From a virus, in IMG/VR virus record IMGVR_UViG_3300034061_003620, positions 1 through 32,437 of that record: a DNA stretch of 32,437 nucleotides. One strand, given 5' to 3'. Positions 4,929 to 32,437 of the stretch are shown one piece after another (the first letter of the stretch is position 1; every line of letters starts with the position of its first letter). The notes under the pieces were generated by a model. That model did not search any database, had not been told where the DNA came from, and saw only the letters and a program-made list of their open reading frames with translations. A program made the translations under genes and the position numbers.

Positions 4929-6150
4929 GGAAATCCCGAAGATCACGCGCAACTTCGCCAAACCGGCGAGGACGCGGGTCTTCAAGGGCGGGCGCGGATC
5001 GGGAAAAACCAGGGGCCTTGCGCTCCGGTCTGCCCTTCGGGTCTACCAGCTTGCCGAGATGGGCGTTGAAGGCGTGTTCCTCGCCAGCCGGGAGCATCTG
5101 AACTCGCTGGACGAGTCCTCGATGGAGGAGATCAAGGCGGCGATCCGGTCGATCGACTGGCTGGCGGCCTACTTCGACGTCGGCGAGAAGTACATCCGGA
5201 CCCGCAATCGCCGGATCAGCTACGCCTTCGCCGGGCTTCGTCACAACCTCGACAGCATCAAGTCCAAGGCCCGGATCATTGGGAACTGGACGGACGAGGC
5301 CGAGAACGTCTCGGAGATGGCCTGGCGCAAGCTGATCCCCACGCTTCGCGCCGAGGGTGACGGCTGGATCGCCGAGAACTGGATCAGCTACAACCCGGAG
5401 AGCCCGGAGAGCGCGACCCACAAGCGGTTCGTGGCGCAGCCTGATCCGAACGTCATTGTCACGACGGTCAACTGGTCGGACAATCCGTGGTTTCCGGCCA
5501 AGCTGAACGGCGACCGTCTGGACGATATGCGGCTACGGCCGGAGATTTACGACCACGTCTGGGAAGGCGAGTTCCTGACCCTGACGGACGCCCAGGTGTT
5601 CGCCGGCAAGTGTTTCGTCGAGGAGTTTGAGGTCGGTGCCGATTGGGACGGGCCCTATCAGGGCCTCGACTTCGGTTTCGCCCAGGATCCGACCGCAGCC
5701 GTCCGGGCCTACATCCACGGCCGCACGCTCTACATCCGCAACGAGGCGGGCAAGACCAAGCTGGAGCTGGACGACACCGGCCGTTTCATCTGCGATCGCA
5801 TCCCCGGCTTTGCCGAGCACGTCACCCGTGCCGACAACGCCCGGCCGGAAAGCATCAGCCACCTGACGCGCCACGGCCTGCCGAGGATCAAGGCGGTCGA
5901 GAAGTGGAAGGGCAGCGTCGAGGACGGCGTCGCCTTCATCCGGTCGTTTGAGCGGGTCGTGATCCACCCGGACTGTCCGCAGACCGCCCGCGAGGCCCGG
6001 CTTTACAGCTACAAGGTCGATCCCCGCTCGGGCGACATCAAGCCCGACATCCTGGACGCCAACAACCACTTCATCGACGCGCTGCGATACGCGCTGGAGC
6101 CGATGATCAAGCGTCGCGGTGATCTCCGGGTCGCCCCCCTTCGCATCTAG
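4912..6150 (+). CDS. terL: Terminase large subunit, PBSX/Terminase_3 type
   Basis: This 412-aa packaging motor has an N-terminal ATPase with Walker A KGGRGSGKT at residues 25-33 and Walker B region IIGNWTDEAENV near residue 125. The C-terminal RNase H-like nuclease starts at GLDFGFAQDPTA (about 250), with further acidic motifs at ADNARPESI and DANNHFIDALRYAL. It translocates DNA into the prohead and cuts concatemers. The ORF starts at ATG 4912 inside the end of terS, which suggests coupling. The length is normal for PBSX-type large terminases. Confidence 0.93.
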   Translation: MRATIEEIPKITRNFAKPARTRVFKGGRGSGKTRGLALRSALRVYQLAEMGVEGVFLASREHLNSLDESSMEEIKAAIRSIDWLAAYFDVGEKYIRTRNRRISYAFAGLRHNLDSIKSKARIIGNWTDEAENVSEMAWRKLIPTLRAEGDGWIAENWISYNPESPESATHKRFVAQPDPNVIVTTVNWSDNPWFPAKLNGDRLDDMRLRPEIYDHVWEGEFLTLTDAQVFAGKCFVEEFEVGADWDGPYQGLDFGFAQDPTAAVRAYIHGRTLYIRNEAGKTKLELDDTGRFICDRIPGFAEHVTRADNARPESISHLTRHGLPRIKAVEKWKGSVEDGVAFIRSFERVVIHPDCPQTAREARLYSYKVDPRSGDIKPDILDANNHFIDALRYALEPMIKRRGDLRVAPLRI

Positions 6151-6158
6151 GAGGCCGT

Positions 6159-7547
6159 ATGGAGGCGAACGAACGATCCGCCGCCGCCTCACAGATGGCG
6201 AAGGCTCACCCCATGCTGGAGGCCCTGACCAAGGGCACGGCGGCCATGCGGGAGGCGGGCAAGACCTTCCTGCCGAAGTGGCCGAACGAGGAAGAAGACG
6301 CCTGGACCGCGCGGCTCAACACCTCGACGCTGTTCCCGGCCTATCGCCGGACGGTGTCGGTCATGGCAGGCAAGCCGTTCTCCAAGGCCGTGACGCTCGA
6401 CAAGGACGTTCCCGACCAGATCGAGGAATGGGCCGAGGACATCGACCGCGAGGGGGTGAACCTCCACACCTTCTGCGCCGAGATGTTCGCCGAGGGCTTC
6501 TATGGCTTGGCCGGCATCCTCGTGGAGAGCCCGAAGGCCCCGCCTCCTGGTCTCCGGCCGCTGACCGTAGAGGAACAGCGCGGCCTCGGCATCCGGCCCT
6601 ACTTCGTTCGGGTCATGCACGACCAGGTCCTCGGCTGGCGCTTCAGCCGCGAGGCCGGCGCCCGTCGACTGGTCCAGCTTCGGATCAGCGAGAACACGAC
6701 GATCCCGGATGGCGACTTCGGCGAGAAGAAGGTCGAGCGCGTCCGCATCCTTGAGCCCGGCACGTTCCGGGTGCTGGAGAAGCAGACCAAGGACGCCGGA
6801 AAGGCCGAGTGGGCCGAGATCGACGCCGGGACGACGGGCCTGGCCTACATCCCGTTCGTGCCGATCTATGGTCGCCGCTGCGGCCTGATGCACGGCGAGC
6901 CGCCGCTGATCGACCTGGCCTATCTGAACGTCAAGCACTGGCAGTCCCAGAGCGACCAGGACAACATCCTGCACGTCGCGCGGGTGCCGATCCTGTTCCT
7001 CAGCGGAGGAGACGAGAAGACCTCGCTGACCGTGGGCGGCTCTGCGGCGGTACAGGCCCCGGAGGGTGCCGACCTCAAGTGGGTCGAGCACTCGGGCAAT
7101 GCGATCGGGGCGGGCGAGAACTCGCTCAAGGCCCTCGAAGAACAGATGATCCAGGCGGGCGCCGAACTGCTGGTCAAGAAGCCGGGCGACCGTAGCGCGA
7201 CCGAAGCCGCCAACGATGCGGAGGCCAACAAGTCCGACCTTCAACGGATGGTCGAGGACTTCGAGGACAGCATCGACGCGGCCCTGCAGATGATGGCCGA
7301 CTACGCCTCGCTCCCGAGCGGTGGCCACGTCTCGCTGTTCAAGGACTTCGGCGCGGCGACGCTGCAATCGGCCTCGGCCCAGCTGATCCTCTCGATGAAC
7401 CAGTCCGGCCTGCTGTCGGACGAAACAACCATCTCGGAGATGAAGCGGCGCGGCGAGCTTTCGGCGGAAGTCGACTACGCCACCGAGCGGGACCGCATCG
7501 CGGATCAGGGACCGGCGCTGGGGACGGTTGAAGGCGGTGCAGCTTGA
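6159..7547 (+). CDS. Portal protein, DUF4055 family
   Basis: This 462-aa protein follows terL by 8 bp, with a strong TAGGAGG ribosome-binding site at 6148-6154. Sequence and length match DUF4055 phage portal proteins: RRTVSVMAGKPFSKAVTL in the N-terminal third, then FCAEMFAEGFYGLAGILVE, IPFVPIYGRRCG, and a long C-terminal helical region (SATEAANDAEANKSDLQRM). The portal forms the dodecameric ring at the capsid vertex through which TerL pumps DNA and onto which the connectors and tail assemble. Confidence 0.88.
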   Translation: MEANERSAAASQMAKAHPMLEALTKGTAAMREAGKTFLPKWPNEEEDAWTARLNTSTLFPAYRRTVSVMAGKPFSKAVTLDKDVPDQIEEWAEDIDREGVNLHTFCAEMFAEGFYGLAGILVESPKAPPPGLRPLTVEEQRGLGIRPYFVRVMHDQVLGWRFSREAGARRLVQLRISENTTIPDGDFGEKKVERVRILEPGTFRVLEKQTKDAGKAEWAEIDAGTTGLAYIPFVPIYGRRCGLMHGEPPLIDLAYLNVKHWQSQSDQDNILHVARVPILFLSGGDEKTSLTVGGSAAVQAPEGADLKWVEHSGNAIGAGENSLKALEEQMIQAGAELLVKKPGDRSATEAANDAEANKSDLQRMVEDFEDSIDAALQMMADYASLPSGGHVSLFKDFGAATLQSASAQLILSMNQSGLLSDETTISEMKRRGELSAEVDYATERDRIADQGPALGTVEGGAA

Positions 7548-16001: not shown

Positions 16002-19000
16002 ATGACCGAAGTCGCAAACCTCCAGATCACCATTGACGCGCGCCAGGCCGAACAGGCGTCGGTCTCGCTGGAAAAGATGGCCACGGCCAGTGCTCGGGCA
16101 GAGGGACGCACGCTCGCACTGACCCAGCAGGTCCGGTCGTCGCAGGCCGGTGTCCAGCAGCTCGGGTTTCAGATCAACGACTTCGGCACGCAGCTTTCGG
16201 CTGGCGTCAACCCGATTGTGGCGTTCAATCAGCAGCTCGGTCAGGCCGGTTTCGCCCTGTCGCAGATGGGCGGCCGCCTTGGTCAGGTCGGCAACTTCCT
16301 CGCTGGCCCGTGGGGCGCTGCCGTCACCATCGGTATCGCCCTTCTGGGAACGATGGCGACGCGGTTGTTTGAGCAGAACCAGGCGCTCGACGAAGGCATC
16401 GCCAAGCTCCGAGAGGACGCCAGAGAGACCGAGAACGCCCGGCGCGCGAAGGAAGCCTTCGCCCAGACGACCGAGGGTCTTTACGACGCAATCGTCAGGC
16501 TCAACGAAGTCACCGAGCGCAGCATTCGGTCGTCGCGTGAGGCCGCGCAAGCGACCCTCGCGGAAGCCATGGCGCAGCGAGCGCGAACGGTCGAAATCCG
16601 GCGCGGCCTTGAGGCGCAGCTAGAGGGTCAACGGCTCTTGGCCCGGGCGCAGTTGACCTCGGCCATGCAGCCCAACCAGCGCGGCGAAGCAGCGACACAA
16701 GGTCTGGCGGCGGCTCGCCGGGCTGTCGAAGAAGCCGAGGCCGCACTGTCGGCCAACGCCGTCAAGATCGAGGAGGCGCAGCAAAGCGTCCGTAACGCCA
16801 CCATCGGCATCGCCATCACGGCAGCCGAAGAGACCGCGACGGCGGTCGGCCGGATCAATCGTCAGTATGACGTGCTGCGAGATCGCGCCGTCGCCGCCGC
16901 TCGCGGTTCCGACGCCCTGACCGCCAGCTTGGCGGGCACCCTCGGCCGCATCGAGGCCAACCGGCAGGCCGCCCTTGACCTGGAGCAGCAGCAGAACCGG
17001 ACCACCCGGGCGACGCGCGAGCGAGCGGCGGCGATGACCGAGGCCGAACGCGAGTATCAATCAACCATCCGGGCGTCGGAAAGCCTGATTGAGCGCCTGA
17101 CGCGCGAGGCCGACACCTACGGCATGACCGAGACGGCGCTTCGTCGCTACACGGCGAGCCAGCAGATCGCGGCCTTGGCGGCGAACGGCTGGACGCAGGA
17201 AGAGATCGCGCTGGCCGACGCCATCATGAACCGCGTCCGCGCCGTCGAAGAGGCAGAGCGCGACCGGACGCAAGTCTTTGATCGCCCGGACAACGTCACG
17301 CTCCAGCCGCTCAATATCGACACGGTCACCCTGCTTACGCCGATCCAGGAAGCCGTCATCGCCCTTCGCGAGATGGACGAGGTCGCCCAAGGTCTTGGGG
17401 AAAGCCTGTCGCGTTCGTTCGGTCGCAGCGGTCAGGCCATTGGCGACGTTGTTGCTGGCATCACAGGCTATCGTGCCGAGGTCGCCCGCATGTTTGAAGA
17501 GGCGGGCCAGAACGAGCTGATGCGGGAGAAGGCCTTCCGCAGGCAGGCGCAGATGGAGGTCCAGCTTTACGGCGACCTTGCCGGCAGCGCGAAGCAGTTC
17601 TTCGACGAGAAGTCGACGGGCTATCAGATCCTCACCGCTGTCGAGTCGGCATACCGGGCCTTCGAGCTGGCGTCGTCCATCGCCTCCATCGCCCAGGGCT
17701 GGACCGAGACGGGCCAGAAGGTGGCTCAATCCACGGCCAAGACCACAGCCTCAACGGCGGCGGGCGGGGCCAAGCTGTTCGAACAGTTGGGCGTGTTCGC
17801 TTTCCCGGTCATCGGCGCGATGGTTGCCGTTTTGGCAGGCCTAGGGGCGCGCGGCGGGGGTGGGGGCGCGGCCACGCCGACCCTGCCGACCACCAACGAG
17901 GGGCGAGGCTCCGTCTTGGGCGACTCGGCGGCTCAAAGCGCCAGCATCGGGAACTCGCTGGACCGTGCCGAGCGCTATTGGGCCAGAGACCTCCAGTTCA
18001 GCAACGACATGGTGAAGGCCCTTCGGTCGATCGACACCCAGATCGGCAGCGTGACCACGGCCATCGCGCGGGAACTCGGCGTCGGTGGCGGCTTGAACTC
18101 GTCGGGCCTTGGCCTCGGCACCACGACCTCGGGCGGGTTCCTGGGGATTGGCGCGACGACCCGGACGACGGAACTGGTGGATCAGGGTATCGCCCTCAAT
18201 GGCGGCTCGCTGGCGGACCTGATCACCCGGGGCGTGTCGGGCAACCTGTACCAGATTGTCCAGACCACCTCGCGCAACAACGGCTTCCTGGGGATTGGGG
18301 CCTCGACCCGGACCCGGAACAACGAGACCACCACGGGCCTCGACTCCGGCCTGTCGGGCGAGTTCTCGCGCCTGCTGGCCAGCCTTCGCACGGGCGTCCT
18401 GACGGCGGCCGGTGTGGTCGGTGTGCAAGGGGCGGAAGCCCTGCTTGATGCGTTCAACGTCCAGATCGGCCGGATCAGTTTCGACGGCCTGTCCTCGTCG
18501 GAAATCCGCGAGCGCCTGACCGCCGTGTTCTCTGCCGTGGGAGACGATCTGGCCGCCGCTGCCCTGCCCGGGATTGAGCGGTTCCAGCGTGCCGGCGAAG
18601 GGGCGTTTGAGACGCTGACCCGTCTCGCCACGGAATACGAGGCGGTGGACAACACCCTGCGCTCCATTGGTCAGGCCTTCCGTCTGGTCGGGGTGGAGAG
18701 CATCGAGGCCCGGTCGCGCCTGATCGAACTGTCGGGCGGTCTGGACGCCTTCATCGAGGGCACACAGGCCTTCTCCGAAGCCTTCCTGACCGACGCGCAA
18801 CGCATCGCCCCGATCCAGGCTGCGGTGACGGCCGAACTGACCCGCCTCGGCATCGCCACCGATATCAGCCGCACGGGCTTTGCGGACCTCGTTCTGGGCC
18901 TGGACGTGTCCACGGCGGCCGGGGCGGCGATGTATGCCAGCCTGATCAATCTGGCCCCCGCGCTGGATCAGGTCATCACCTATCAGGACGAACTGGCGCA

Positions 19001-23872: not shown

Positions 23873-24135
23873 CCCTTCCGCCACGCTTTGAACGTGTCGT
23901 CTCTGCCCTCGGCGACCTTGCCCGGCCTGCCGTCCTCTACCTCGCCGCCCTGTCCTCGGCCATCGCCACCGTCGCCATTGTCTTCCTCGGCCTCGACCTG
24001 ACGGCTGGCGCTTTGTTCATCGGCACGGCATGGGGCGGCGTGGCCGTCCTCTACGGTGCCAAGGCCGCCGAGGTCGCGGCCATCAAGAAGCGCGACGCCG
24101 AAATCGAGATCGCGCGGTCCAACCGCGAAGCCTGA
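23869..24135 (+). CDS. Holin candidate (two membrane segments)
   Basis: This is an 88-aa protein; ATG 23869 overlaps the previous stop. It has two hydrophobic segments, about 20-42 (AVLYLAALSSAIATVAIVFL) and 47-68 (GALFIGTAWGGVAVLYGAKA), and a charged C-terminal tail (IKKRDAEIEIARSNREA). Size, topology and position right before the endolysin fit a class II holin, which opens the inner membrane at the programmed time. The endolysin lacks a signal peptide, so a large-pore holin is needed. Confidence 0.72.
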   Translation: MTLPPRFERVVSALGDLARPAVLYLAALSSAIATVAIVFLGLDLTAGALFIGTAWGGVAVLYGAKAAEVAAIKKRDAEIEIARSNREA

Positions 24136-24161
24136 CCTCCCCACACAATCGGAGCCTGCCC

Positions 24162-24851
24162 ATGACGCGCGCCGCCATGTTCGCTGCCGTGCGCCCTTTT
24201 GCGCCCGGTGGCCGGTTCACTCCCGAGATGGTCAAGGCCGGTGACGCCTTCGCCGACGCGCTGGGACTGCCGAGGGAGGAGGCCAGGCCCTTCGACGGCA
24301 AGATCACCGCCCGGATCGCCGCCGAGCTACTGGCACACGAGGCTATCGTTCTCGAGGCCTATCTCGACAGCGTGAAGGTGTGGACCTGGGGCGTCGGTGT
24401 CACCAACGCATCCGGCCATGACGTTTACCCCCGCTACAAGGACAACCCCCAGACCGTGGAGAAGGCGCTGGAGGTGTATCTCTGGCTCCTGCGGGCCAAG
24501 TATGCCCCGGCCGTGGTGGAGGCCTTCGACGGCTTCCCCCTGACCGAAGAACAATACGCCGCCGCCCTCTCGTTCCACTACAATACCGGGGCCATCGGTC
24601 GGGCCTCGTGGGTCAAGTCGGTGAAGGCCGGCAAGATCGAGCTGGCCCGCGCCGAGTTCATGCAGTGGCGTCGCCCTGCCGAGATCATCCCCCGCCGCCG
24701 TGCCGAGTGCGCCCTGTTCTTCGACGGCAAGTGGTCGGCGGACGGCACCACCACGATCTGGCCGGTCAGGAAGCCTTCCTACTCCCCGGATTGGTCCAAG
24801 GGCCGCAAGGTCAACGTCATGGCCGATCTGGAGAAGGCGCTGGCGTCGTGA
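24162..24851 (+). CDS. Endolysin, GH24 lysozyme (T4 type)
   Basis: This 229-aa muramidase has the GH24 catalytic spacing: Glu60 (HEAIVLEAY), Asp69 (LDS) and Thr75 (WTWGVGVT), the same 9 and 6 residue steps as Glu11, Asp20 and Thr26 of T4 lysozyme. LSFHYNTGAIGRASW and MQWRRPAEIIPRRRAE are also family-typical. An N-terminal extension of about 45 residues (FTPEMVKAGDAFADALGLP) is unrecognised. There is no signal peptide or SAR segment. I chose ATG 24162 because the longer frame from 24030 would overlap the holin. Confidence 0.92.
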   Translation: MTRAAMFAAVRPFAPGGRFTPEMVKAGDAFADALGLPREEARPFDGKITARIAAELLAHEAIVLEAYLDSVKVWTWGVGVTNASGHDVYPRYKDNPQTVEKALEVYLWLLRAKYAPAVVEAFDGFPLTEEQYAAALSFHYNTGAIGRASWVKSVKAGKIELARAEFMQWRRPAEIIPRRRAECALFFDGKWSADGTTTIWPVRKPSYSPDWSKGRKVNVMADLEKALAS

Positions 24852-24931
24852 CCAACAAGCTCGCCCTCTACGCCGCCGCCATCGTGTTCGCCGTGGCGGT
24901 GTTCGTCATCCTGCGGAGACTGTGCCGATGA
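24848..24931 (+). CDS. 27-aa single-membrane-segment peptide in the lysis cassette
   Basis: GTG 24848 overlaps the endolysin stop (GTGA) and the TGA at 24929-24931 overlaps the next ATG at 24928. The product (MTNKLALYAAAIVFAVAVFV then ILRRLCR) is one membrane helix with a basic C-terminus. Both junctions support translation. It might tune holin timing, as a pinholin-like or antiholin peptide, or only couple translation to the spanin gene. Confidence 0.5.
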   Translation: MTNKLALYAAAIVFAVAVFVILRRLCR

Positions 24932-25251
24932 CTGCGATCCTGACCTTCCTCGCCCGCCTCCCCTGGCAGATCAAGGTGTCCATAGCGGTCGCCATCTGCC
25001 TCGCCGGGTTCTGGGCCGCCTTGTCCTATCAGACCGCCCGTGCCGACCGCGCCGAGGCACAGGCCCGCCAATCCCGCGTCGTGGTGGACGCCCTTGATAC
25101 CGTCGCCACGCAAACCCCCATCATCCGCTCCGAACAAGAGGAGAAGCAACGTGCGGTCGATCAAATCCAAGGTGCTGATCAGCGGCTTCCTGATGGCTTC
25201 GGCCGCGAGCTTGAGCGCGTGCGCCAGCAGCGGAGTGCAGATCCCCGATAG
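24928..25251 (+). CDS. i-spanin (Rz-like)
   Basis: This is a 107-aa protein with an N-terminal membrane helix at about 16-35 (KVSIAVAICLAGFWAALSY) and a periplasmic charged helical domain (ADRAEAQARQSRVVVDALD, EEKQRAVDQIQ). The gene is preceded by the lysozyme and contains the start of a lipoprotein gene in another frame, the classic Rz/Rz1 layout. With the outer spanin it fuses inner and outer membranes at the last step of lysis. Confidence 0.8.
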   Translation: MTAILTFLARLPWQIKVSIAVAICLAGFWAALSYQTARADRAEAQARQSRVVVDALDTVATQTPIIRSEQEEKQRAVDQIQGADQRLPDGFGRELERVRQQRSADPR

Positions 25252-25438
25252 CCTGCGGACGCCCTGTGTTTCGACCGTCGATGTCTCGACTGCGGAAACG
25301 GTCGGTGACCTTGGCCGGGCGATCATCCAGGGCGACGGCGACCTTCGCGTCTGCGAGGCCCGCCGCTCTGCCGTGGTGGCTATCGCCGAGGGCCAGCGCC
25401 CGTGGTGGGCACGACTTAGGCCACACGACCCGGGCTAG
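25151..25438 (+). CDS. o-spanin lipoprotein (Rz1-like), overlapping the i-spanin gene
   Basis: This 95-aa product starts at GTG 25151 with GAGGAG about 8 bp upstream, inside the i-spanin gene in another frame (101-bp overlap), and runs beyond its end. It has a lipoprotein signal of 23 residues with lipobox LSAC (Cys24). The mature part is not proline rich but is short and charged, with IPDSLRTPC and a second Cys. It would anchor in the outer membrane and bind the i-spanin. The nested-then-extended gene order fits overlapped spanins. Confidence 0.78.
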   Translation: MRSIKSKVLISGFLMASAASLSACASSGVQIPDSLRTPCVSTVDVSTAETVGDLGRAIIQGDGDLRVCEARRSAVVAIAEGQRPWWARLRPHDPG

Positions 25439-25504
25439 TCCGCAAACCCTGCGGAGAATACCCCGCACAATCTCCGCGTCGAGCCCCCGCTCCGCACCCC
25501 TCGC

Positions 25505-25534
25505 GCCCCCGTTGCCCCAACCGGCGACGGGGGC
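25505..25534 (+). terminator. Strong hairpin after the lysis cassette
   Basis: A 12-bp stem with one G-T pair (25505-25516 with 25523-25534) encloses loop CCAACC. The T run after it is weak (GTCGTCATATCT). It lies in a 129-bp gap after the spanin and probably limits late readthrough into the accessory region. The gap is otherwise empty. Confidence 0.6.
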
Positions 25535-25567
25535 GTCGTCATATCTGAACCCTGACAAGGACCGATC

Positions 25568-26770
25568 ATGGCCCTGACGTTCACACCGGCAGAGACGGCA
25601 GACGGACCCATATGGGAGGACACGACGCTCCTGTCGTTCGCCACCGAACGAGAGCTGCGGATCATTGAGGCCTACCAGGAACACGGGACGCATCAGAAAG
25701 CCGCCCGGGCCATGGGATGCGCGGTCAGCAACATCAGCGACGCCATCGGCAAGCTCAAGAAGCGCGCGGCCAAGGCAGGCTATGCCCCCGGCCATTTCGT
25801 CCACGGCGTCGCCCCCGGCAACCGCATGGGCAAGGTCACCATCCAGCGAGGGCCGGGCGGATCGATCGAACGGACATGGGAGCGCCAGAGCCCGGAAGAC
25901 CTCAAGAACCAGGCGGTCATCGAGGCCATCCGCGAAGCCGCTGACGACCTCCCCCGTCTGCCGGCGCTACCCCTTCCCGCCGACACCCTGTCGTCGCTGC
26001 TGAACCTCTACGTTTTCACCGACTACCATTTGGGCATGAGGGCATGGGCCGAAGAGGGCGGGGCCGATTGGAACCTGGAGATCGCCGAGGGGCTGATCGT
26101 CCGGGCTTTTGAGCACATGGTGGCCTCTGCCCCGGCCGCGCGGGTCGCCGTGGTCGGCCAGCTTGGCGACTTCCTCCACACCGACAGCCTGATCAACGTC
26201 ACCCCGACAAGCCGCCACGTCGTGGACACAGCGGCCCATTACAAACAGGTGGTCCGGGCGGCGATCCGCATCATGCGCCGGATCATCGACTTCGCCCTGC
26301 ATCGCCACGAAAGCGTCGTGGTCATCAACTGCGAAGGCAACCACGATATCATCGGCGGCGGGATCTGGCTTCCCGAGGCCATCCGCCCCTACTACGAGAA
26401 CGACCCACGGGTCTCGTTCATCGAAAGCTCCACGCCCTACTATGCCTACGAGTGGGGCGCGACCATGCTGGCCTTCCACCACGGCCACATGAAGAAGCTG
26501 GAGTCCCTGCCCCTCGTCTTCGCCGAGCGTTACCCGGAAATCTGGGGCAGGACGAAGAAGCGGTACGCCCACGCCGGGCACTATCACCACGAGGTGGACA
26601 AGAAGGACGTCGGCGGGATGCGGGTCACGCAACACCCGACCCTGGCACCGAACGACAGCCACTCAGCGCGAGGCGGCTATCCCGCCAACCAGCAAACGTC
26701 GGTGATCACCTATCACCAGCGGTTCGGCAAAGTCGGCGAGACTGTCGTGACGCCCGAGATGCTCGCCTGA
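25568..26770 (+). CDS. HTH domain fused to a metallophosphoesterase
   Basis: This 400-aa protein joins two parts. Residues 24-70 look like a helix-turn-helix (RELRIIEAYQEHGTHQKAARA and AVSNISDAIGKLKKR). Residues 147-385 carry the calcineurin-like metallophosphoesterase signature: TDYHLG (Asp152, His154), GQLGDF (Asp201), CEGNHD (Asn258, His259), HHGH (about 304-307) and GHYHHE (His338, His340). All metal ligands are present, so it should be active on phosphodiesters, for instance DNA or nucleotides. Similar HTH-phosphoesterase proteins occur in other phages, with unknown substrate. It lies between lysis and attachment regions, between hairpins, where cargo genes are common. Confidence 0.8.
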   Translation: MALTFTPAETADGPIWEDTTLLSFATERELRIIEAYQEHGTHQKAARAMGCAVSNISDAIGKLKKRAAKAGYAPGHFVHGVAPGNRMGKVTIQRGPGGSIERTWERQSPEDLKNQAVIEAIREAADDLPRLPALPLPADTLSSLLNLYVFTDYHLGMRAWAEEGGADWNLEIAEGLIVRAFEHMVASAPAARVAVVGQLGDFLHTDSLINVTPTSRHVVDTAAHYKQVVRAAIRIMRRIIDFALHRHESVVVINCEGNHDIIGGGIWLPEAIRPYYENDPRVSFIESSTPYYAYEWGATMLAFHHGHMKKLESLPLVFAERYPEIWGRTKKRYAHAGHYHHEVDKKDVGGMRVTQHPTLAPNDSHSARGGYPANQQTSVITYHQRFGKVGETVVTPEMLA

Positions 26771-26820
26771 CAACAGATAGGTGATCAAAAGGCCCCGCCT
26801 TGATCACACATAGATGATCG
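26701..26820. promoter_or_regulatory. Cluster of four TGATCA-centred sites, operator-like
   Basis: Sites resembling ATAGGTGATCA occur at 26703-26713 (minus orientation, perfect), 26777-26787 (plus, perfect), 26801-26811 (minus, two mismatches) and 26810-26820 (plus, two mismatches). Sites two and three form an inverted repeat, GTGATCAA 26781-26788 and TTGATCAC 26800-26807. The first is inside the end of the phosphoesterase gene. This looks like a multi-site protein-binding region or a hairpin. Confidence 0.4.
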
Positions 26821-26821
26821 C

Positions 26822-26856
26822 AGCCCCTCGTCCCCTCACCGGGGCGGGGGGCTTTC
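26822..26856 (+). terminator. Rho-independent terminator after the phosphoesterase gene
   Basis: AGCCCC (26822-26827) pairs with GGGGCT (26848-26853), with an inner stem formed by CCCC and GGGG, followed by TTT at 26853-26855. It ends the transcript of the HTH-phosphoesterase gene. Confidence 0.6.
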
Positions 26857-26920
26857 ATGCGTCTGTGACGGCCCCTCTGGTTCCGTTGGGCTATAGCGCC
26901 ACTATCAGAACAGGTGGTGA

Positions 26921-26958
26921 ACATTAGGGTTTGAACGGCTACCGAACACCGCTAATGT
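26921..26958. promoter_or_regulatory. Inverted repeat upstream of the HNH gene
   Basis: ACATTAG (26921-26927) is repeated inverted as CTAATGT (26952-26958), with partly paired GGTTTG and CGAACACC inside. It lies in the 257-bp gap 26771-27027, which has no gene besides these sites. It could be an operator, a weak hairpin or part of the HNH promoter region. Confidence 0.35.
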
Positions 26959-27027
26959 CGGGCCGACGAAGCGTCTTGCACACGCTCGCCGACCCTAACC
27001 ACAGCCGCCCGTAGGAGGGGCGACGCC

Positions 27028-27576
27028 ATGGCTACTGACCCTATTGATGAAGTGCTGTCCGATGTCCACCTTCGCCTGGGGGTGGAGGAACGGTTCTGGC
27101 CCAAGGTCATGCGGCCGATGGACTGGACGTCGTGCTGGGAATGGCAGGGTGCCAAGCGCCGCCTCGGCTATGGCCGGTTCAAGACCAAGAGCTACACAAC
27201 CGTCTCTGCGCACCGGCTGTCCTATGCGCTCTACTACGGCGTCAGCCCCGGTGAGATGCACGTCTGCCACCGTTGCGACAACCCTCAGTGTGTGAACCCG
27301 GAGCATCTGTTTCTCGGCACGAACGCCGACAACGTGGCCGACAAGGTCGCCAAGGGTCGGGCAGTCGGGCGTGATCAGCGCGGCGAACGGAACGCGGCCG
27401 CGAAGCTGACGGCAAGGGCGGTTGACGAGATACGCGACTTGATTTCAGCCGGGCACAAGAACACGCACATAGCCGCTCGCTACGGCGTGACGCACCAACT
27501 GATCAGTCGGATCAGGCGGGGCCGGTCGTGGGTGGTGGGGATGGAGGGTGTCGAACCCCCGACCTCCTGCGTGTGA
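27028..27576 (+). CDS. HNH endonuclease with C-terminal helix-turn-helix
   Basis: This 182-aa protein has a strong AGGAGG-type ribosome-binding site. The HNH domain spans about 35-115: CWEWQGAKRRLGYGRF, then MHVCHRCDNPQCVNPEHLF, LGTNADNVADKVAKGR. A C-terminal HTH follows (AAKLTARAVDEIRDLI, NTHIAARYGVTHQLIS). This is the layout of phage HNH nucleases that behave like homing enzymes or assist packaging. The last 15 residues (GMEGVEPPTSCV end) are encoded by the antisense of a tRNA-Val, so the natural C-terminus may be near RGRSWVV. The stop lies in the tRNA anticodon loop. Confidence 0.85.
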   Translation: MATDPIDEVLSDVHLRLGVEERFWPKVMRPMDWTSCWEWQGAKRRLGYGRFKTKSYTTVSAHRLSYALYYGVSPGEMHVCHRCDNPQCVNPEHLFLGTNADNVADKVAKGRAVGRDQRGERNAAAKLTARAVDEIRDLISAGHKNTHIAARYGVTHQLISRIRRGRSWVVGMEGVEPPTSCV

Positions 27577-27607
27577 AGCAGGCGCTCTCCCGTTGAGCTA
27601 CATCCCC
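27533..27607 (-). tRNA. tRNA-Val (anticodon CAC), complete with CCA
   Basis: The minus strand folds as a full cloverleaf: acceptor stem GGGGATG with CATCCCC, D-arm GCTC/GAGC, anticodon stem CCTGC/GCAGG with loop TTCACAC, T-arm GGGGG/CCCTC with loop TTCGACA, discriminator A and an encoded CCA. The anticodon CAC reads the Val codon GTG. It overlaps the HNH gene end by 44 bp on the other strand. It may be phage-borne, the host gene at an att junction, or both; int lies 195 bp away. Confidence 0.93.
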
Positions 27608-27801
27608 GGTTCCGTTGAACCAGCCGACCGACCCTAGCGCCTTGTTTTCACGAAGCCGCACGACTCCGTGTGAACGAGTAGCGCGTCCCGGAAAAGGCCG
27701 TCATAACTGGCGAAAGCGCCGATGTTCCCCGCGAACAAGCGACGAACACGATAGCAACATCCGGTGCAAAGTGGGCAGGTGACCCGGAGAGCAACTAGGG
27801 T
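27608..27801. other. Putative attachment region between tRNA and integrase
   Basis: This 194-bp gap has no gene. It starts with the inverted repeat GGTTC/GAACC (27608-27621) beside the tRNA 5' end. On the minus strand GCTAGGGT (27631-27638) with TTCGTGA (27648-27654) loosely resembles a Caulobacter-type promoter, which could serve the tRNA. Similar short units (CGAACAAG and CGAACACG near 27740-27760) may be integrase arm sites. GGTTCCGTTG also occurs at 26879-26888, before the HNH gene. The core att sequence cannot be fixed from this window alone. Confidence 0.4.
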
Positions 27802-28767
27802 TTACCAGTCCAAGGCCTCCGACGCGGCCTTCAGGTAATCGGGATGCAGCTTGGCATAGACCCGCTCTGTGACCCCGACCGACGAGTGGCCGAGATACCG
27901 GCTGATCTCCAGCATCGGAACGCCCGCCATGGCCATCCAGGAAGCCGCTGTGTGTCGCAGGACGTGCGGTGTGACCCCGGACAGCCCGGCACGGTCACAA
28001 GCGGCGCGGAAGCCCTTCTTGATGGACAGAACGCGGTGTCCGCCCCACTCGATCACATAGTCTGACGTTCGGGCGCGGTAGAGGGCCTGCAGATACATGC
28101 GAGCCCTGCGGTTCATGGGAACGCTCGCCCGGCGCTTCCGCGTCTCGTCCAGATCGTCGCCAAGGGACAGGGAGACGCGGCCGGTGCGGAAGTCCACCCG
28201 ATCCCATGTCAGCTCGAGCAAGGCCGACTGGCGGGCTGCTGTGGTCAGGGACAGGACGATGAAGGCCCGGACGTGCGAAAAGGGTCGGGCCTTGGTGACA
28301 AGGCGGCGGGCCTCGGCTTTCGACAGGAAGCGATCCTTGGGCCTTGGCTGCGGCGGTAGCTCAAACACGGCCCCCGGCTTCTTGAAGAAGTTGAGCGCGG
28401 CCCGGACGACCTCCAGTTCCTTCCGCACCGTGGCGGGCTTTCGTCCCTGTCGATACCGGGCGTCCCGATAGGAGCGGCACAGGTCGCGGGTGATCTGATC
28501 CGGGCGAAGGTGGCCGAAGGTGGCCTCGGCCTGTTTCCAAGAACCGCGAAGATCCTTGGCCCGGATCGCGGTCTTGTCCTTGTCGTCTAGATAGGCCGCG
28601 ACGATCTCGCCAACGGTCTCGCCGGTCGGCTTGGCGATGAAGTCGGCTAGGCGGCGCTTTGCCTCGTCAGGATCGGCGGTGCGGAGCGAGACCCGTTCCG
28701 TCTGACCGTTGTGCGATCGGACGGCGGCGTACTTGCCTCGATAGAGTTTGAGCCGCCATTCTGGCAC
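27802..28767 (-). CDS. int: Tyrosine recombinase, phage integrase
   Basis: This 321-aa protein begins MPEWRLKLYRGKYAA, an N-terminal arm-binding-type domain, followed by a SAM-like core-binding domain (about 48-130) and the catalytic domain with Arg179 (TTAARQSA), a Lys near 211, His268 and Arg271 (TPHVLRHTAA), His294 (GHSS) and nucleophile Tyr304 (RVYAKLH). All catalytic residues are present. It uses a GTG start at 28767 with GAGGAA upstream. It inserts and excises the phage DNA at attP/attB. It is the last gene of the leftward operon, points toward the tRNA, and overlaps the excisionase gene by 121 bp. Confidence 0.95.
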   Translation of the reverse strand: MPEWRLKLYRGKYAAVRSHNGQTERVSLRTADPDEAKRRLADFIAKPTGETVGEIVAAYLDDKDKTAIRAKDLRGSWKQAEATFGHLRPDQITRDLCRSYRDARYRQGRKPATVRKELEVVRAALNFFKKPGAVFELPPQPRPKDRFLSKAEARRLVTKARPFSHVRAFIVLSLTTAARQSALLELTWDRVDFRTGRVSLSLGDDLDETRKRRASVPMNRRARMYLQALYRARTSDYVIEWGGHRVLSIKKGFRAACDRAGLSGVTPHVLRHTAASWMAMAGVPMLEISRYLGHSSVGVTERVYAKLHPDYLKAASEALDW

Positions 28768-28943
28768 GGGCGTTCCTCGTATTCGATCACGGCCTCGGGC
28801 CGGATGCGGATTTGCCGACCTATGCGAAAGGCGCGCAAGTCTCCAGACCGAACGAGGTTGCGGACGGTCGCCGCTGATACGCCCCAGCGTTCCGCCAGGG
28901 TCTCCGGTGTCAGAGCCCGGTTATCGTTCGCCGGCTCACCCAT
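28647..28943 (-). CDS. xis: Excisionase-like HTH protein
   Basis: This 98-aa protein has an N-terminal MerR/HTH_17-type helix-turn-helix (about 11-55): LTPETLAERWGVSAATVRNL, then DLRAFRIGRQIRIRPEAVIEY. That is the excisionase-family pattern. The C-terminal 40 residues are Ser/Arg-rich and overlap int in another frame by 121 bp, so they may be unstructured. Start ATG 28943 has AGGAGAAGGG upstream. It would direct Int toward excision and may be a transcription regulator as well. Confidence 0.8.
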   Translation of the reverse strand: MGEPANDNRALTPETLAERWGVSAATVRNLVRSGDLRAFRIGRQIRIRPEAVIEYEERPCQNGGSNSIEASTPPSDRTTVRRNGSRSAPPILTRQSAA

Positions 28944-29172
28944 CTCCCTTCTCCTGAAGGATGGCGTCGATCATGGCGACCCATGTGAAATCGGCCGACG
29001 TGTTGATCGCGCGCCCAGCCCAAAGCGCATCGTCTCCCGGCTCCCTCACCGCAAGCAGGACGGCGCGGGCTATGTCGATGGCGTCGTTTGGATCAAAGCC
29101 GTACCAGCCGGTTTCGTGCTGCGCCTCATCCCACTCAATGAGCGCCCTCGCTGCTTTCTCCAGGCTAGTCAT
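28936..29172 (-). CDS. Small phage early protein, unknown function (78 aa)
   Basis: I chose ATG 29172 (MTSLEKAARALIEWDEAQHE) because the longer frame from 29223 would overlap the upstream gene by about 60 bp. The product has Trp/Tyr-rich helices (GWYGFDPNDAIDIARAVLL) and no known domain. It overlaps xis and the upstream gene by 8 bp each, as part of the tightly packed leftward operon. Confidence 0.6.
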   Translation of the reverse strand: MTSLEKAARALIEWDEAQHETGWYGFDPNDAIDIARAVLLAVREPGDDALWAGRAINTSADFTWVAMIDAILQEKGDG

Positions 29173-29416
29173 TCTCTTTGTCCTTTCGGGCTTGGCCGCG
29201 CTGAGCCGCCTCGTATCCGGCAAACCATGCGGAGTGGGTTTCTTCCTCCAGCTCCCTCACCCGTTCAGCCAGTGCCTCGATATGTGCGGCGGCTTCTGGG
29301 CCATCGGGGTTTTCCAAACGCCCGCCCGGCCACTGGAGATGGCCGTAGCGTTTTCGCAGCTTGGCGAGGAGCTGGGGTATCCGCTCGATCAGGTCGTTGG
29401 TCATGGGCGGGGTCAT
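29165..29416 (-). CDS. Small phage early protein with a coiled coil (83 aa)
   Basis: ATG 29416 overlaps the upstream stop (ATGA), which decides the start against a TTG at 29428. The product is 83 aa, with an EAAAHIEALAERVRELEEE coiled-coil segment, resembling Ead/Ea22-like early phage proteins in layout. The C-terminal end is charged (ARKDKEND). No function is known. Confidence 0.55.
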   Translation of the reverse strand: MTPPMTNDLIERIPQLLAKLRKRYGHLQWPGGRLENPDGPEAAAHIEALAERVRELEEETHSAWFAGYEAAQRGQARKDKEND

Positions 29417-29778
29417 GCTGCCTCCCAATGGTCAATCTCACACTCGCGGGCGAGTGTGATCGCGGCGTCCTGATCCCAGGCATATGCTGGGTCACCGAAC
29501 TTGATCTTGTCGTCGCGCAGGAAGTCGCGAACGGTCGAAACCGCGAGCGCCTTTGCGTTCATGGGCTCCATGCTGCGGTCAGTTCGCATGAACTCGAAAG
29601 CCACCTGCCAGACGAAGGCGGTCGCCGTCAGCTTCCCCGCGACCTTCTTGTTGTCTCGCGCGGCCTTGCGCAGAACGTCGTCAATAATTTCGTTCATGCG
29701 GGTCTCGATCAGACCTCCCGGCTTGGCAGCGTCTTCAAGGGCGCGGTCCACGGTGCGCTTGATGGCCTCTCCAATCAC
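29413..29778 (-). CDS. Helical phage early protein, unknown function (121 aa)
   Basis: This is a 121-aa protein from GTG 29778, overlapping the upstream stop (GTGA). It is helical and charged (MIGEAIKRTVDRALEDAA, IIDDVLRKAARDNKK) and ends LARECEIDHWEAA. Phage early operons carry many such proteins, some aimed at host factors. Nothing in the sequence identifies the target. Confidence 0.6.
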   Translation of the reverse strand: MIGEAIKRTVDRALEDAAKPGGLIETRMNEIIDDVLRKAARDNKKVAGKLTATAFVWQVAFEFMRTDRSMEPMNAKALAVSTVRDFLRDDKIKFGDPAYAWDQDAAITLARECEIDHWEAA

Positions 29779-29972
29779 GACACAGCCTCCTTCGCCCTTA
29801 CCAGGGCAATGACTAGGGCTAGGGGTGGGGTGGGGGCGTGGGCGTGAGCCATTGCGGCCTCATAGGTCGGATGCCCGTCCCAACGGTCGCTCGGCTGTGG
29901 GTCGGGGCAGTTGCAGCCGTAGTCCACAACGGACTGGCAAACCGGACAGGTGAACATGTAATGGCCGGTCAT
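29775..29972 (-). CDS. Small putative zinc-ribbon protein (65 aa)
   Basis: This 65-aa protein contains CPVC (about 9-12) and CNCP (about 20-23), a compact four-cysteine zinc-binding unit, then PSDRWDGHPTYEAAMAHAHA. ATG 29972 overlaps the upstream stop (ATGA). Short zinc-ribbon genes recur in this phage (3569-3709, 8916-9167). A nucleic-acid or protein-binding role is likely but unspecified. Confidence 0.6.
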   Translation of the reverse strand: MTGHYMFTCPVCQSVVDYGCNCPDPQPSDRWDGHPTYEAAMAHAHAPTPPLALVIALVRAKEAVS

Positions 29973-30304
29973 GCGCCGACCTTCCGCTTGCCGGTCTCGC
30001 TCTTGAGCATCCGGGCCATCTGGAAGCAGGAGCCCTCAGTCGTAGCGAGGACGTAGACAATGCCGACTGCTGCGATCTTGAGCGGGTCGCCAGTCGTCAG
30101 GGCTTGGAACAGCACGCCGAAGATTAGCACCTGGGTCACGAACCAGACGCCGTTGGACGCCCAAGCGCAGCGGCGGTGATAGTCCACATCGGCAGAGTTG
30201 CGAGATCGAGACACGGCGGTAAAGGCCATGTTCTGAACGAACGCCACGGCACCCAGCAGAGGCAGAAGCGCCCAAAGCGGAAGCGACGTCAGGTAGTCGG
30301 TCAT
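29969..30304 (-). CDS. Small membrane protein, unknown function (111 aa)
   Basis: This is a 111-aa protein with probable membrane helices at about 10-28 (LWALLPLLGAVAFVQNMAF), 51-67 (NGVWFVTQVLIFGVLFQ) and 75-92 (LKIAAVGIVYVLATTEG), with a basic C-terminus. It resides in the inner membrane if expressed. An early phage membrane protein may act in superinfection exclusion, but no such domain is visible. The start overlaps the upstream stop (ATGA). Confidence 0.65.
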   Translation of the reverse strand: MTDYLTSLPLWALLPLLGAVAFVQNMAFTAVSRSRNSADVDYHRRCAWASNGVWFVTQVLIFGVLFQALTTGDPLKIAAVGIVYVLATTEGSCFQMARMLKSETGKRKVGA

Positions 30305-31125
30305 GCAGCGTCTCTCAGGTTTTGCTCGGCAATGAAGCAGGTGATCCCGCAGCTAATCGGCTCGGGTGTGTCGTCATCGGCCCCGTCCAGCGGGTCGAGT
30401 TCGTCCAGAAAGACGCCGACCTTTTCTCCATCGATGGTCTTGCGAACCAGGGCGTAGCCAAGTTCACGCTCCATCGCCGCCATGCGCTCAAACAGGTGCG
30501 GGAAGTTGCGGCGGATGCGGTTCCAATAGGCCGGCCCCTCCGCCTTCACGCAGGGCAGGCAGTTGTTGTTGTCGAAGCCCAGCAGATACGGAACCGGCAG
30601 CTTGATCCCGGCGCGTTCTACGATGGCGTAGCAATCCGCCTTCGACAGCGAGGCGTCGATCAGCGGAAACTCGCAGACCATCTCGCCGTAATGGTGGCGG
30701 CGGAACGTGTCAGCGCGCTTGCGTTCTTCGGTGGTGAAGCCCCAAAGCTGGATCGCATCGGCGGGGATCGCCATGTCGCTTCGGACACCGCGCTTAAGCT
30801 CAGTCGTGCAAGGTGCGCCTGACGGACCACGAAGGAACCGCCGCGCACTCCAGACCGCCCAGGTGTCCTCATACTTGGCCGACCGCACCGTCTGGATCGG
30901 CTTCCCATACCAGGCCGCCAGATCGTCCAGAAAGCGCACCGTGTCGGGATGTTCCGACCCCGTGTCGATGTAGGTCAGTTCGACCCGATCCAGCCCATAC
31001 TTGGCGATGGCCATCTTGCACGTCACCGCAGACGCCGCGCCGCCAGATACCCAACCGATGACGCGAGCATCCAACTCCCGGCTTCCCCGTTCTGCGGACT
31101 GGAGGGCGGTGAGGAGGTCAGTCAT
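30301..31125 (-). CDS. PAPS reductase-like PP-loop protein
   Basis: This 274-aa protein belongs to the adenine nucleotide alpha-hydrolase / PAPS-reductase superfamily. The loop is SGGAAS (residues 27-32), not the canonical SGGKDS. Further signatures are YIDTGSEHPDT, CTTELKR (Cys106), NNNCLPCVKAEGPAYWNRI (Cys189, Cys192), and a late C-x3-C (Cys259, Cys263), which may bind an iron-sulfur cluster with Cys106. Phage members of this group exist but their reaction is not settled; sulfur transfer or nucleotide modification are possible. I used ATG 31125 because a longer frame to 31182 runs into the upstream gene. It is the only clear enzyme in the leftward operon. Confidence 0.8.
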   Translation of the reverse strand: MTDLLTALQSAERGSRELDARVIGWVSGGAASAVTCKMAIAKYGLDRVELTYIDTGSEHPDTVRFLDDLAAWYGKPIQTVRSAKYEDTWAVWSARRFLRGPSGAPCTTELKRGVRSDMAIPADAIQLWGFTTEERKRADTFRRHHYGEMVCEFPLIDASLSKADCYAIVERAGIKLPVPYLLGFDNNNCLPCVKAEGPAYWNRIRRNFPHLFERMAAMERELGYALVRKTIDGEKVGVFLDELDPLDGADDDTPEPISCGITCFIAEQNLRDAA

Positions 31126-31534
31126 TGCCAGGCCCCGGCTGCATGGCGGCGATGAGGGCGCGGGCTTCTGCATTTTCAGCACGCTTTTCGGCGGCAGCGA
31201 GCCGTTCGTTCAGGTCCGCGATCAGATACCGCTCGCGTTCATGGCTGATCGACAGATCGAAGATCAGGCCCGCAATCACGTCAGCGACGGCGGTGCCCTT
31301 GTGAGCGTCGTAGATTGGCTTCACCGTCAGCGGGTGAAGGTGCTTAATCGACGGGATTTCGCCAGACGGGACGTGCGCCTGTCCCTCGCCGATCACAGTT
31401 CGCCACCACGTGTCCCGCTCCACCAGGTCACCGGCTGGGGCTGGGGATGCGGAGCCTTTGGCGGTGCATTTGCTGCGCGGATGACCGCAGTCAGGCCAAG
31501 GCCCTTCGCACTTAATCCGATAGTCACTGGCCAT
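31118..31534 (-). CDS. Cys/His-containing phage early protein (138 aa)
   Basis: The start ATG 31534 follows GGAGAAG and an adjacent in-frame ATG at 31537; a longer frame to 31585 would run 62 bp into the upstream gene. Near the N-terminus is C-x7-C-x-H-x4-C (CEGPWPDCGHPRSKC), a possible zinc site. The C-terminus is a coiled coil (ADLNERLAAAEKRAENAEA). No known family was recognised. Confidence 0.55.
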   Translation of the reverse strand: MASDYRIKCEGPWPDCGHPRSKCTAKGSASPAPAGDLVERDTWWRTVIGEGQAHVPSGEIPSIKHLHPLTVKPIYDAHKGTAVADVIAGLIFDLSISHERERYLIADLNERLAAAEKRAENAEARALIAAMQPGPGND

Positions 31535-31805
31535 CATTCTTCTCCATGTGGGTGAGGGCTTGGCGGGCTTTTTTCCCGCGATCATACATGACTTCCACGT
31601 TCAAGATTATGCGACGGCCATACGCTTCGGCTTTCGAGTAATAAACCAAAGCCTCCCGCGCCTCCCTGACCTGTTCGGAAAGGCGGGCGATCTCTGCGAG
31701 AGTGGCGCGGAGGTCGCGCGTCTGCACCATAGCGACAAGGGCGTGTGGGCCGCCCAAGTCTAGCTCCCGCTGCACCCGCTCCACTGCTTCTGATACGGGG
31801 GTCAT
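31524..31805 (-). CDS. Coiled-coil phage early protein, unknown function (93 aa)
   Basis: This is a 93-aa protein beginning MTPVSEAVERVQRELDLGG, with a central helix (TLAEIARLSEQVREAREALV) suited to dimerisation. ATG 31805 overlaps the upstream stop (ATGA). It is part of the gapless leftward operon. No function is recognised. Confidence 0.55.
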   Translation of the reverse strand: MTPVSEAVERVQRELDLGGPHALVAMVQTRDLRATLAEIARLSEQVREAREALVYYSKAEAYGRRIILNVEVMYDRGKKARQALTHMEKNDGQ

Positions 31806-32083
31806 GCGGGGTCTCCCAAGTGTGGATTGGCGCGCAAAAAGCTGTCATGCTCGGCCACCGCTGCGGCCCCGCGATCTGCGTCTCGGAAATCAGACAGGAT
31901 CATTTGCCGGTCGTAGTCGGCGCGGCCCGCCTCGGCCCTCATCTCCTTCAGAAGCCAAAGCAGGTTCGGGCTTCCGCCATAGGCACCAAGAGACAGGATC
32001 AACTGACGAACGATGCCCCCCGCGCTTGCGTTTGGATGTTTCTCGCGCAAAGCCGCAATATGCTGTTCGGCTGTGTCGCTCAC
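31802..32083 (-). CDS. Phage early protein, unknown function (93 aa)
   Basis: This is a 93-aa protein with a GTG start at 32083 in a GTGA overlap with the upstream stop. It starts SDTAEQHIAALREKHPNAS and is helical, ending RANPHLGDPA. No domain is recognised; the evidence for coding is the coupled junctions and the codon pattern. Confidence 0.55.
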   Translation of the reverse strand: MSDTAEQHIAALREKHPNASAGGIVRQLILSLGAYGGSPNLLWLLKEMRAEAGRADYDRQMILSDFRDADRGAAAVAEHDSFLRANPHLGDPA

Positions 32084-32437
32084 CCCGCCTCTCCCATAAC
32101 TGCGTTGATCTTGGCGTCCCGACGTGAGATGCGAGACGGTCGAACGGGTTGCGGCGGGTCACTGCCCTTGTCGGCGTCAAAAGTGACAAGCGGCCAACCT
32201 TCGCAATCGCCACGGTAAGTGCAGCGAACTTTGACGCCCTCGCCCATATCGTAAAGCAACAAGTCCCCCACCCTCAGCGCCTCTAGCGGGTCAGCCGTGA
32301 CGTTCTGCGGCCCGTCGTAAACCGGGATGACGCGGCCCTTGTTGCCCATGAACGGGGTCGGCTGCCCCTTGTCGATGAAGACCGCGCCGACGCCAGAGTT
32401 CGGGACGATCAAGTGCCCGAGGAACGTCGGGTCAGGG
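32080..32437 (-). CDS. Phage early protein, partial at the window edge
   Basis: The frame remains open to the right edge (DPTFLGHLIVPNSGVGAVF visible), so the start is probably outside the window; the TTG at 32412 is only the first possible start inside it. The visible 119 residues form a beta-rich region (RVGDLLLYDMGEGVKVRCT, GWPLVTFDADKG), followed by a basic helical end. No family is recognised. Confidence 0.55.
   Translation of the reverse strand, partial: PDPTFLGHLIVPNSGVGAVFIDKGQPTPFMGNKGRVIPVYDGPQNVTADPLEALRVGDLLLYDMGEGVKVRCTYRGDCEGWPLVTFDADKGSDPPQPVRPSRISRRDAKINAVMGEAG

Follow-up and report, generated by a model that had tools for sequence, protein, structure and literature searches.

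The integration region of the window

The window, i.e., the entire stretch of DNA analyzed here, is a complete IMG/VR virus record of 32,437 bp and consists of a single metagenomic contig. Its gene set, which includes a DnaB helicase, a replication initiator, a terminase, a portal, a major head protein and an integrase, is that of a temperate tailed phage, and a megablast search with positions 24000-32437 yielded no match among 50,697 named phage records. The region of interest is composed of an HNH endonuclease gene, a tRNA gene on the opposite strand and the gene of a tyrosine integrase (int), which is overlapped at its start by an excisionase-like gene (Table 1). The presumed P arm of the phage attachment site (attP) also contains TAGTTGCTCT-like motifs, which are found in relatives of the phage as well. 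Two other genes of the window are a PAPS reductase-like gene (phrog_424; 30301-31182, minus strand) in the leftward early region and, just upstream of the HNH gene, a gene for a phrog_704 "DNA repair exonuclease" family protein (25568-26770, plus strand). An ORF resembling the latter is found after the tRNA-nuclease region of the related contig L004 (5706-6836, minus strand).

Table 1. Features of the window, of three related phage contigs (L002-L004) and of the prophage locus L176 in genome G063.
Locus	Feature	Position	Strand	Evidence or remark
Window	HNH endonuclease gene	27028..27576	+	HNH_3 (Pfam E 1e-11); phrog_1872/phrog_59
Window	Complete tRNA-Val(CAC), CCA encoded; putative rescue tRNA	27533..27607	-	ARAGORN; Rfam RF00005; homologues in L002-L004, G063; compensatory changes
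Window	Spacer between core and tRNA, 60 bp; presumed P' arm of attP	27608..27667	-	60-62 bp also in L002, L003, L004, G063
Window	attP core block CTCGTTCACACGGA	27665..27678	-	Identical in four phages; same block at G063 junctions
Window	Presumed P arm of attP, int to core	27679..27801	-	Short direct repeat GATAGCAAC/GAGAGCAAC
Window	Tyrosine integrase	27802..28767	-	Phage_integrase E 4e-20; phrog_1
Window	HTH_17 excisionase-like gene, overlaps int start	28647..28943	-	HTH_17; phrog_66 excisionase
L002	Core-tRNA-nuclease frame	5034-5564	same as tRNA	T5orf172/MUG113
L003	Core-tRNA-nuclease frame	4971-5795	same as tRNA	HNH_3
L004	Core-tRNA-nuclease frame	5071-5628	same as tRNA	T5orf172/MUG113
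L176	Host transporter gene	22-1311
L176	Host tRNA 5' half	starts 1368		Ends CACCTCGTTCACAC, then phage GGATGG
L176	tRNA-nuclease frame	1412-1882	same as tRNA	T5orf172/MUG113
L176	Complete prophage tRNA-Val(CAC)	1467-1541		62 bp behind host 5' half
L176	Phage genes	between tRNA and int		~15 kb
L176	int	16364-17332
L176	Other junction	~17457		ACCTCGTTCACAC, then CGAGGGGGTCACAGGTTCAATCCCTGTCGCGTCCACCA (CGAGG...), host 3' half, host kinase-like gene

The tRNA gene, a tRNA-Val(CAC), is the only one identified by ARAGORN in the window and scores 69 bits against Rfam RF00005 (gathering score 29). The HNH stop codon (TGA, 27574-27576) overlaps the anticodon triplet of this tRNA, and antisense tRNA sequence starts in HNH codon 169. 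The first-pass annotation had recognized this overlap, although its estimate of about 15 antisense-read residues is replaced by a count of 13-14 of 182; it was also right that the 3' end of the tRNA faces the HNH gene while int is located on the 5' side. Nearly all of 33 HNH homologues end 2-6 residues past the residue aligned with positions 168-169, and the window protein is 58% identical to that of L003.

A full tRNA-Val(CAC) is found at the same place and in the same orientation relative to int in L002, L003 and L004, the closest complete viral relatives by integrase (68-73% identical to that of the window), so that the arrangement is not due to chance; the whole tRNA is within phage DNA. 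A counterpart of the window terminase was found only in the record of L002 (53% identity) among the relatives' records, which may be fragments, and the four phages may share little beyond the integration module. When the tRNAs of the window, L002-L004 and the G063 prophage (see below) were aligned with one host copy, all 21 stem pairs were found to be kept, i.e., 100% pairing over 126 cells, with 14 pairs changed on both sides; pairing that high was seen in 0 of 500 shuffles. Because all stem pairs are maintained, most of them through changes on both sides, the phage-borne tRNAs appear to be functional.

A comparison with the host copy, which had been proposed at the outset, was made with the tRNA-Val(CAC) of the Brevundimonas type. 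The window tRNA differs from it at 24 of 75 positions, the anticodon stem included, and none of 84,980 genomes contains an exact match to its 3' half; it is therefore no copy of the target. An exact match to the window tRNA is also absent from IMG/VR.

The attP core

Between int and the tRNA, the sequences of the window and L002-L004 have diverged strongly, except for a 14-bp block, CTCGTTCACACGGA, which is identical in all four phages and the last 13 bases of which have one exact match in the window. The initial 11 bases of this block, CTCGTTCACAC (27668-27678), are identical to the anticodon arm of the Brevundimonas tRNA-Val(CAC), CCTCG-TTCACAC-CGAGG. Across the phages the match between core and arm extends over 11-14 nt; in the window the match to the assumed Brevundimonas-type host is 11 bp only, which is the longest identity to the host tRNA between int and the phage tRNA, and 11 nt were reached in 147 of 20,000 mononucleotide shuffles of the spacer. 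The distance from the core loop to the tRNA is 60-62 bp in the window, L002, L003, L004 and G063. Strand exchange likely takes place over TTCACAC, and attB of the window phage would presumably be found in the host tRNA-Val(CAC), given that the core block is identical to that of the relatives. The window core is flanked by non-tRNA sequence on both sides, and its attP does not include the host tRNA 3' half by which classical integration reconstitutes the tRNA. An att core far from the tRNA had been named as an observation that would speak against the first-pass annotation; the core is just 60 bp away.

A split host tRNA in a lysogen chromosome

From this architecture, a lysogen is expected to display the host tRNA 5' half, phage DNA and, ~60 bp further on, the full phage tRNA at one end, and int followed by the orphan 3' half at the other. 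A search for CTCGTTCACACGGA in 390 Caulobacteraceae genomes gave two matches. That in G045 is located in a protein gene, without a tRNA, and was rejected as a chance match; that in the 3.2-Mb contig C1 of G063 is the predicted junction (L176, G063:C1:1639000-1658500). Here, the host tRNA-Val(CAC) is cut in the anticodon loop with its halves 16 kb apart, the halves when joined give the intact tRNA of G060 (L186), and the repeat common to both ends is ACCTCGTTCACAC (13 bp). A pattern search for tRNA-Val genes in G063 identified a single gene each for GAC and TAC, besides the split CAC and the prophage CAC, and no others, i.e., the prophage tRNA is the sole intact tRNA-Val(CAC) found in this genome. 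The 16-kb prophage is decayed; its capsid gene, beside int, is cut at the N-terminal side, with a match that covers positions 195-378 of the 381 in the profile, and an early region was not seen. Despite this decay the prophage tRNA keeps all stem pairs, and int is intact. The tRNA would be expected to persist in a decayed prophage if it keeps the remnant locked at its site.

The main lysogen evidence is thus one chromosome, of a relative with an integrase 75% identical to that of the window. This is the nearest lysogen of the same mode; none of the 390 genomes was found to contain the window phage itself, and a search of viral contigs for an attR-like junction pattern gave nothing. In most of the 358 Caulobacteraceae genomes with a match, tRNA-Val(CAC) is single-copy, while ~30 of the 390 genomes have no match, many of these being small and perhaps incomplete. 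Two suspected split tRNAs, in G349 and G361, were discarded, one because it has no encoded CCA and the other because it is cut by a contig end.

Anticodon stems of phage and host tRNAs

The host tRNA-Val(CAC) has the anticodon stem CCTCG/CGAGG in all listed Brevundimonas-type genomes (G045-G161) but G085 and G097, where the count omits G063, whose matching copy is the prophage one. The five phage tRNAs, in contrast, have the stems CCTGC/GCAGG, TTCGC/GCGAA, CTGCT/GGCAG, CCACG/CGTGG and CGCCC/GGGCG, all unlike that of the host. Only three bases distinguish the copy in L004 from the G046-type host tRNA, and two of these pair with each other in the anticodon stem; the stem in L002 is that of genomes G020-G044, another group in the family. 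A phage tRNA with the stem of the target would itself be an attB, and selection against such tRNAs would explain the foreign stems; we infer that a tRNA with a different stem should not be an attB. This pattern is drawn from five cases that are perhaps not independent. The unusual stems of G015, G085 and G097 (L196, L197 and L198) were considered as replaced tRNAs and rejected, as these genes are found in host context without int or split halves; they appear to be natural variation. Hosts of this kind, with a stem unlike the CCTCG/CGAGG of related genomes, might resist integration at the site.

Expression and overlapping nuclease frames

After integration, the phage DNA upstream of the tRNA amounts to 60-62 bp and is preceded by the promoter and 5' half of the host tRNA. 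A simple scan of the int-HNH region of the window, for the E. coli-type consensus only, gave no sigma-70-like promoter. The simplest expectation is that the host tRNA promoter would transcribe the phage tRNA through the orphan 5' half, with 5' processing by RNase P.

In L002, L003, L004 and the attP of G063, for which the two flanks were joined computationally, the core and the complete tRNA form the 5' part of a single open frame on the same strand, which runs on into a nuclease domain (Table 1). In L002-L004, this frame likely starts 7 codons ahead of the core-encoded LVHT; in G063 the likely start is a GTG 13 codons ahead of it. No in-frame start codon is found between the tRNA and the nuclease domain in L002, L004 and G063. 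Judging from these frames, integration would remove the upstream start of the nuclease frames in L002-L004 and G063. In the window the nuclease frame is broken and the HNH gene is inverted, which is why its overlap with the tRNA is antisense.

Proposed mechanism and alternative explanations

The tRNA, the core, the architecture common to four phages and the lysogen chromosome, with its split host tRNA and intact prophage tRNA, are observed directly, and together they make it very probable that this is an integration module and that the temperate phage to which it belongs relies on tRNA-dependent lysogeny. In its own host the window phage would behave likewise. The integrase would recombine the attP core with the anticodon arm of the single tRNA-Val(CAC) of the host, with strand exchange probably in the TTCACAC loop. 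As attP includes no more than ~11-14 bp of the tRNA and not the 3' half, integration would split the host gene, and the phage would supply, as a rescue tRNA, a complete same-strand tRNA-Val(CAC) at a distance of 60 bp to the core. In the lysogen this tRNA would be located just behind the host tRNA promoter and the orphaned 5' half; the predicted junction for the window phage is the tRNA-Val(CAC) 5' half followed by GGAGTCGTGC. By wobble, GUG could also be read by the tRNA-Val(TAC) that is present in G063, and tRNA-Val(CAC) may then not be essential.

A more elaborate version, which we offer tentatively and consider somewhat doubtful, adds promoter capture and self-protection. The tRNA would be silent or driven by the phage in free phage, integration would switch it to the host promoter, the stem would be kept unlike attB and, in the relatives, the nuclease gene would be cut from its start codon. 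The promoter switch follows from the short length, ~60 bp, of upstream phage DNA that stays with the rescue tRNA.

The first-pass annotation regarded the HNH-tRNA overlap as the product of recombination at a tRNA-type att site and considered the full tRNA as a possible attP, in which case the complete tRNA would recombine with the host copy and a full tRNA would be found at both ends. A tRNA-type att system is indeed present, the complete tRNA is close to int, and most relatives of the integrase use tRNA sequence as att. However, the crossover in G063 took place at a separate core, a 14-bp block in the phages, and left the prophage tRNA whole, and the reading of the overlap as a recombination junction is not supported; together with the differences from the Brevundimonas-type tRNA and the unmatched 3' half described above, this renders a whole-tRNA attP very improbable. 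The other option that had been raised, that the phage adds a tRNA-Val, is borne out by the complete tRNA-Val(CAC) in the window, L002-L004 and G063. A chimeric contig, or a right-hand side that belongs to another element, would be conceivable for a record that is a single metagenomic contig, but the same int-core-tRNA order in L002-L004, which originate from other metagenomes, and in the G063 chromosome leaves this explanation with next to no likelihood.

The tRNA could also be an ordinary phage tRNA that serves lytic growth, by codon supply or by resistance to tRNA-cutting defences, and resides beside int by chance. Lytic roles are discussed for phage tRNAs in the account of PMC10865867, and such a role would be compatible with one in lysogeny. 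As the sole explanation it is nevertheless unlikely: the tRNA is the only one in the window, its anticodon is that of the target tRNA of the integrase, it keeps a constant distance of 60-62 bp to the core in five cases, and the phage shows no excess of GTG, which makes up 135 of 467 Val codons (29%) compared to about half in three host genes. With regard to the HNH protein, the frame is open up to its stop in the anticodon loop, as it would be if the antisense-tRNA tail were a selected part of the protein. That almost all homologues end near the tail's first residue, and that a similar extension of 18 residues is described for Fionnbharth gp37 (PMC10865867), make selection of the tail a very unlikely explanation. 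Within tRNA-dependent lysogeny, the best explanation is that the tail is a by-product of a tRNA placed at the 3' end of the gene, which we regard as very probable together with the reading as a whole.

Comparison with known systems

In tRNA-dependent lysogeny, as described by Guerrero-Bustamante and Hatfull (2024, PMC10865867), a tyrosine integrase uses an attB in a single-copy host tRNA, the core is about 10 bp (8-17 bp) and the tRNA is not rebuilt; lysogens are viable only if the phage provides a tRNA of the same isotype, and clear plaques are formed without it. The phenomenon is proven in mycobacteriophages and described for actinobacteriophages, and its prevalence is posed as a question in that account. 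The system described here shares with that of Fionnbharth the type of integrase, the single-copy target and the absence of tRNA reconstruction, as well as a cognate phage tRNA that is not closely related to that of the host; the core is 11-13 bp here, as compared to the above range of 8-17 bp. In Fionnbharth, an opposite-strand tRNA-Lys lengthens gp37 by 18 residues (PMC10865867), similar to the 13-14 residues added to the HNH protein. The differences are that the phages considered here are those of Caulobacteraceae, that tRNA-Val(CAC) is used and that the integrase is of another family. Furthermore, the rescue tRNA here has the same orientation as the host tRNA, at a distance of 60-62 bp to the core, and is faced by the split host promoter, whereas a promoter of its own has been demonstrated for the Fionnbharth tRNA. 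The requirement of the phage tRNA for lysogeny is demonstrated in PMC10865867; in the window phage the tRNA may have such a role.

Broken tRNA genes that are replaced are also described in another alphaproteobacterium: prophages of S. meliloti make up for an inactivated tRNA with a phage tRNA of the same isoacceptor, which resembles the tRNAs of other species more closely (PMC11476347). The host order, tRNA genes and phages differ from those considered here, the account in PMC11476347 rests on genome comparison, and the S. meliloti tRNA list given there contains no tRNA-Val(CAC). Prophage Lj965 of Lactobacillus johnsonii, cited in PMC10865867 as not reconstructing the tRNA and encoding a cognate one, has a host among the Firmicutes, unlike the window system. 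For phiLM21-like prophages, PMC12429752 reports that no feature of tRNA-dependent lysogeny was found. Classical tRNA-targeting prophages and islands reconstitute the host tRNA (Islander, as outlined in PMC4383910); the window phage shares their class of target, but its attP is without the tRNA 3' half.

In the available parts of open-licence papers on tRNA-dependent lysogeny, no case in Caulobacteraceae was found. What is new here is a lineage in this family with tRNA-Val(CAC) as the target, a rescue tRNA whose position would allow its transcription from the host tRNA promoter, and anticodon stems of rescue tRNAs that, in the five cases compared, are always unlike that of the target. An independent lineage with tRNA-dependent lysogeny bears on the question of prevalence, and G063 adds a chromosome in which the host tRNA is split and replaced and the rescue tRNA survives in a decayed prophage. 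Two rules are suggested, i.e., that a rescue tRNA must not contain attB, which may explain the foreign look of rescue tRNAs, and that it can be positioned to capture a host promoter. In this manner a phage can lock itself into a genome and replace a core tRNA gene.

Integration modes in the integrase family

Where the flanks of an integrase family member could be read, tRNA sequence extending from the anticodon loop to CCA is mostly present in the element or adjacent to it, which indicates that these members rebuild the host tRNA; the target isotypes include Val (TAC, GAC and CAC), Thr (GGT), Arg (CCT and CCG), Pro (CGG), Met (CAT) and others. This anticodon-loop-to-CCA sequence is seen in L082/G001, L177/G161, L007 and L010, and L007, L010 and L177 carry the tRNA 3' part in att. 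An integrase tree places the window in a clade of eight (support 100/100) in which both modes are mixed: L002, L003, L004 and G063 have the replacing arrangement, L005 is cut off, and the nearest sister of the window is L082, from a Brevundimonas MAG, which is 78% identical and of the classical mode (fork support 93/86). Because the clade mixes both modes and the window is nearest to a classical member, the mode has probably switched within this small clade. A similar pair is found in PMC10865867, where the integrases of Fionnbharth and Boilgate are 78% identical and differ in mode. That L082 might prove the classical mode for the window was considered and overturned by the core block and G063.

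The same tRNA-Val(CAC) is used classically in a Brevundimonas MAG with a related int (L178 and L179; contigs 39 and 44 of G001), where the intact tRNA is on the int side and the orphan 3' half on another contig. The orientation of int relative to att in G001 is opposite to that in L007, L010 and the window.

A more distant phage, L018 (int 43% identical), harbors a full tRNA-Val(CAC) with the loop TTCACAT, 805 bp behind int as judged from the T-arm position. An HNH ORF (5595-6218) includes this tRNA-Val in frame in its 5' end, and a candidate core, CCCTTCACAC, is found 115 bp upstream of it. L018 is a candidate for what is perhaps an independent case of tRNA replacement.
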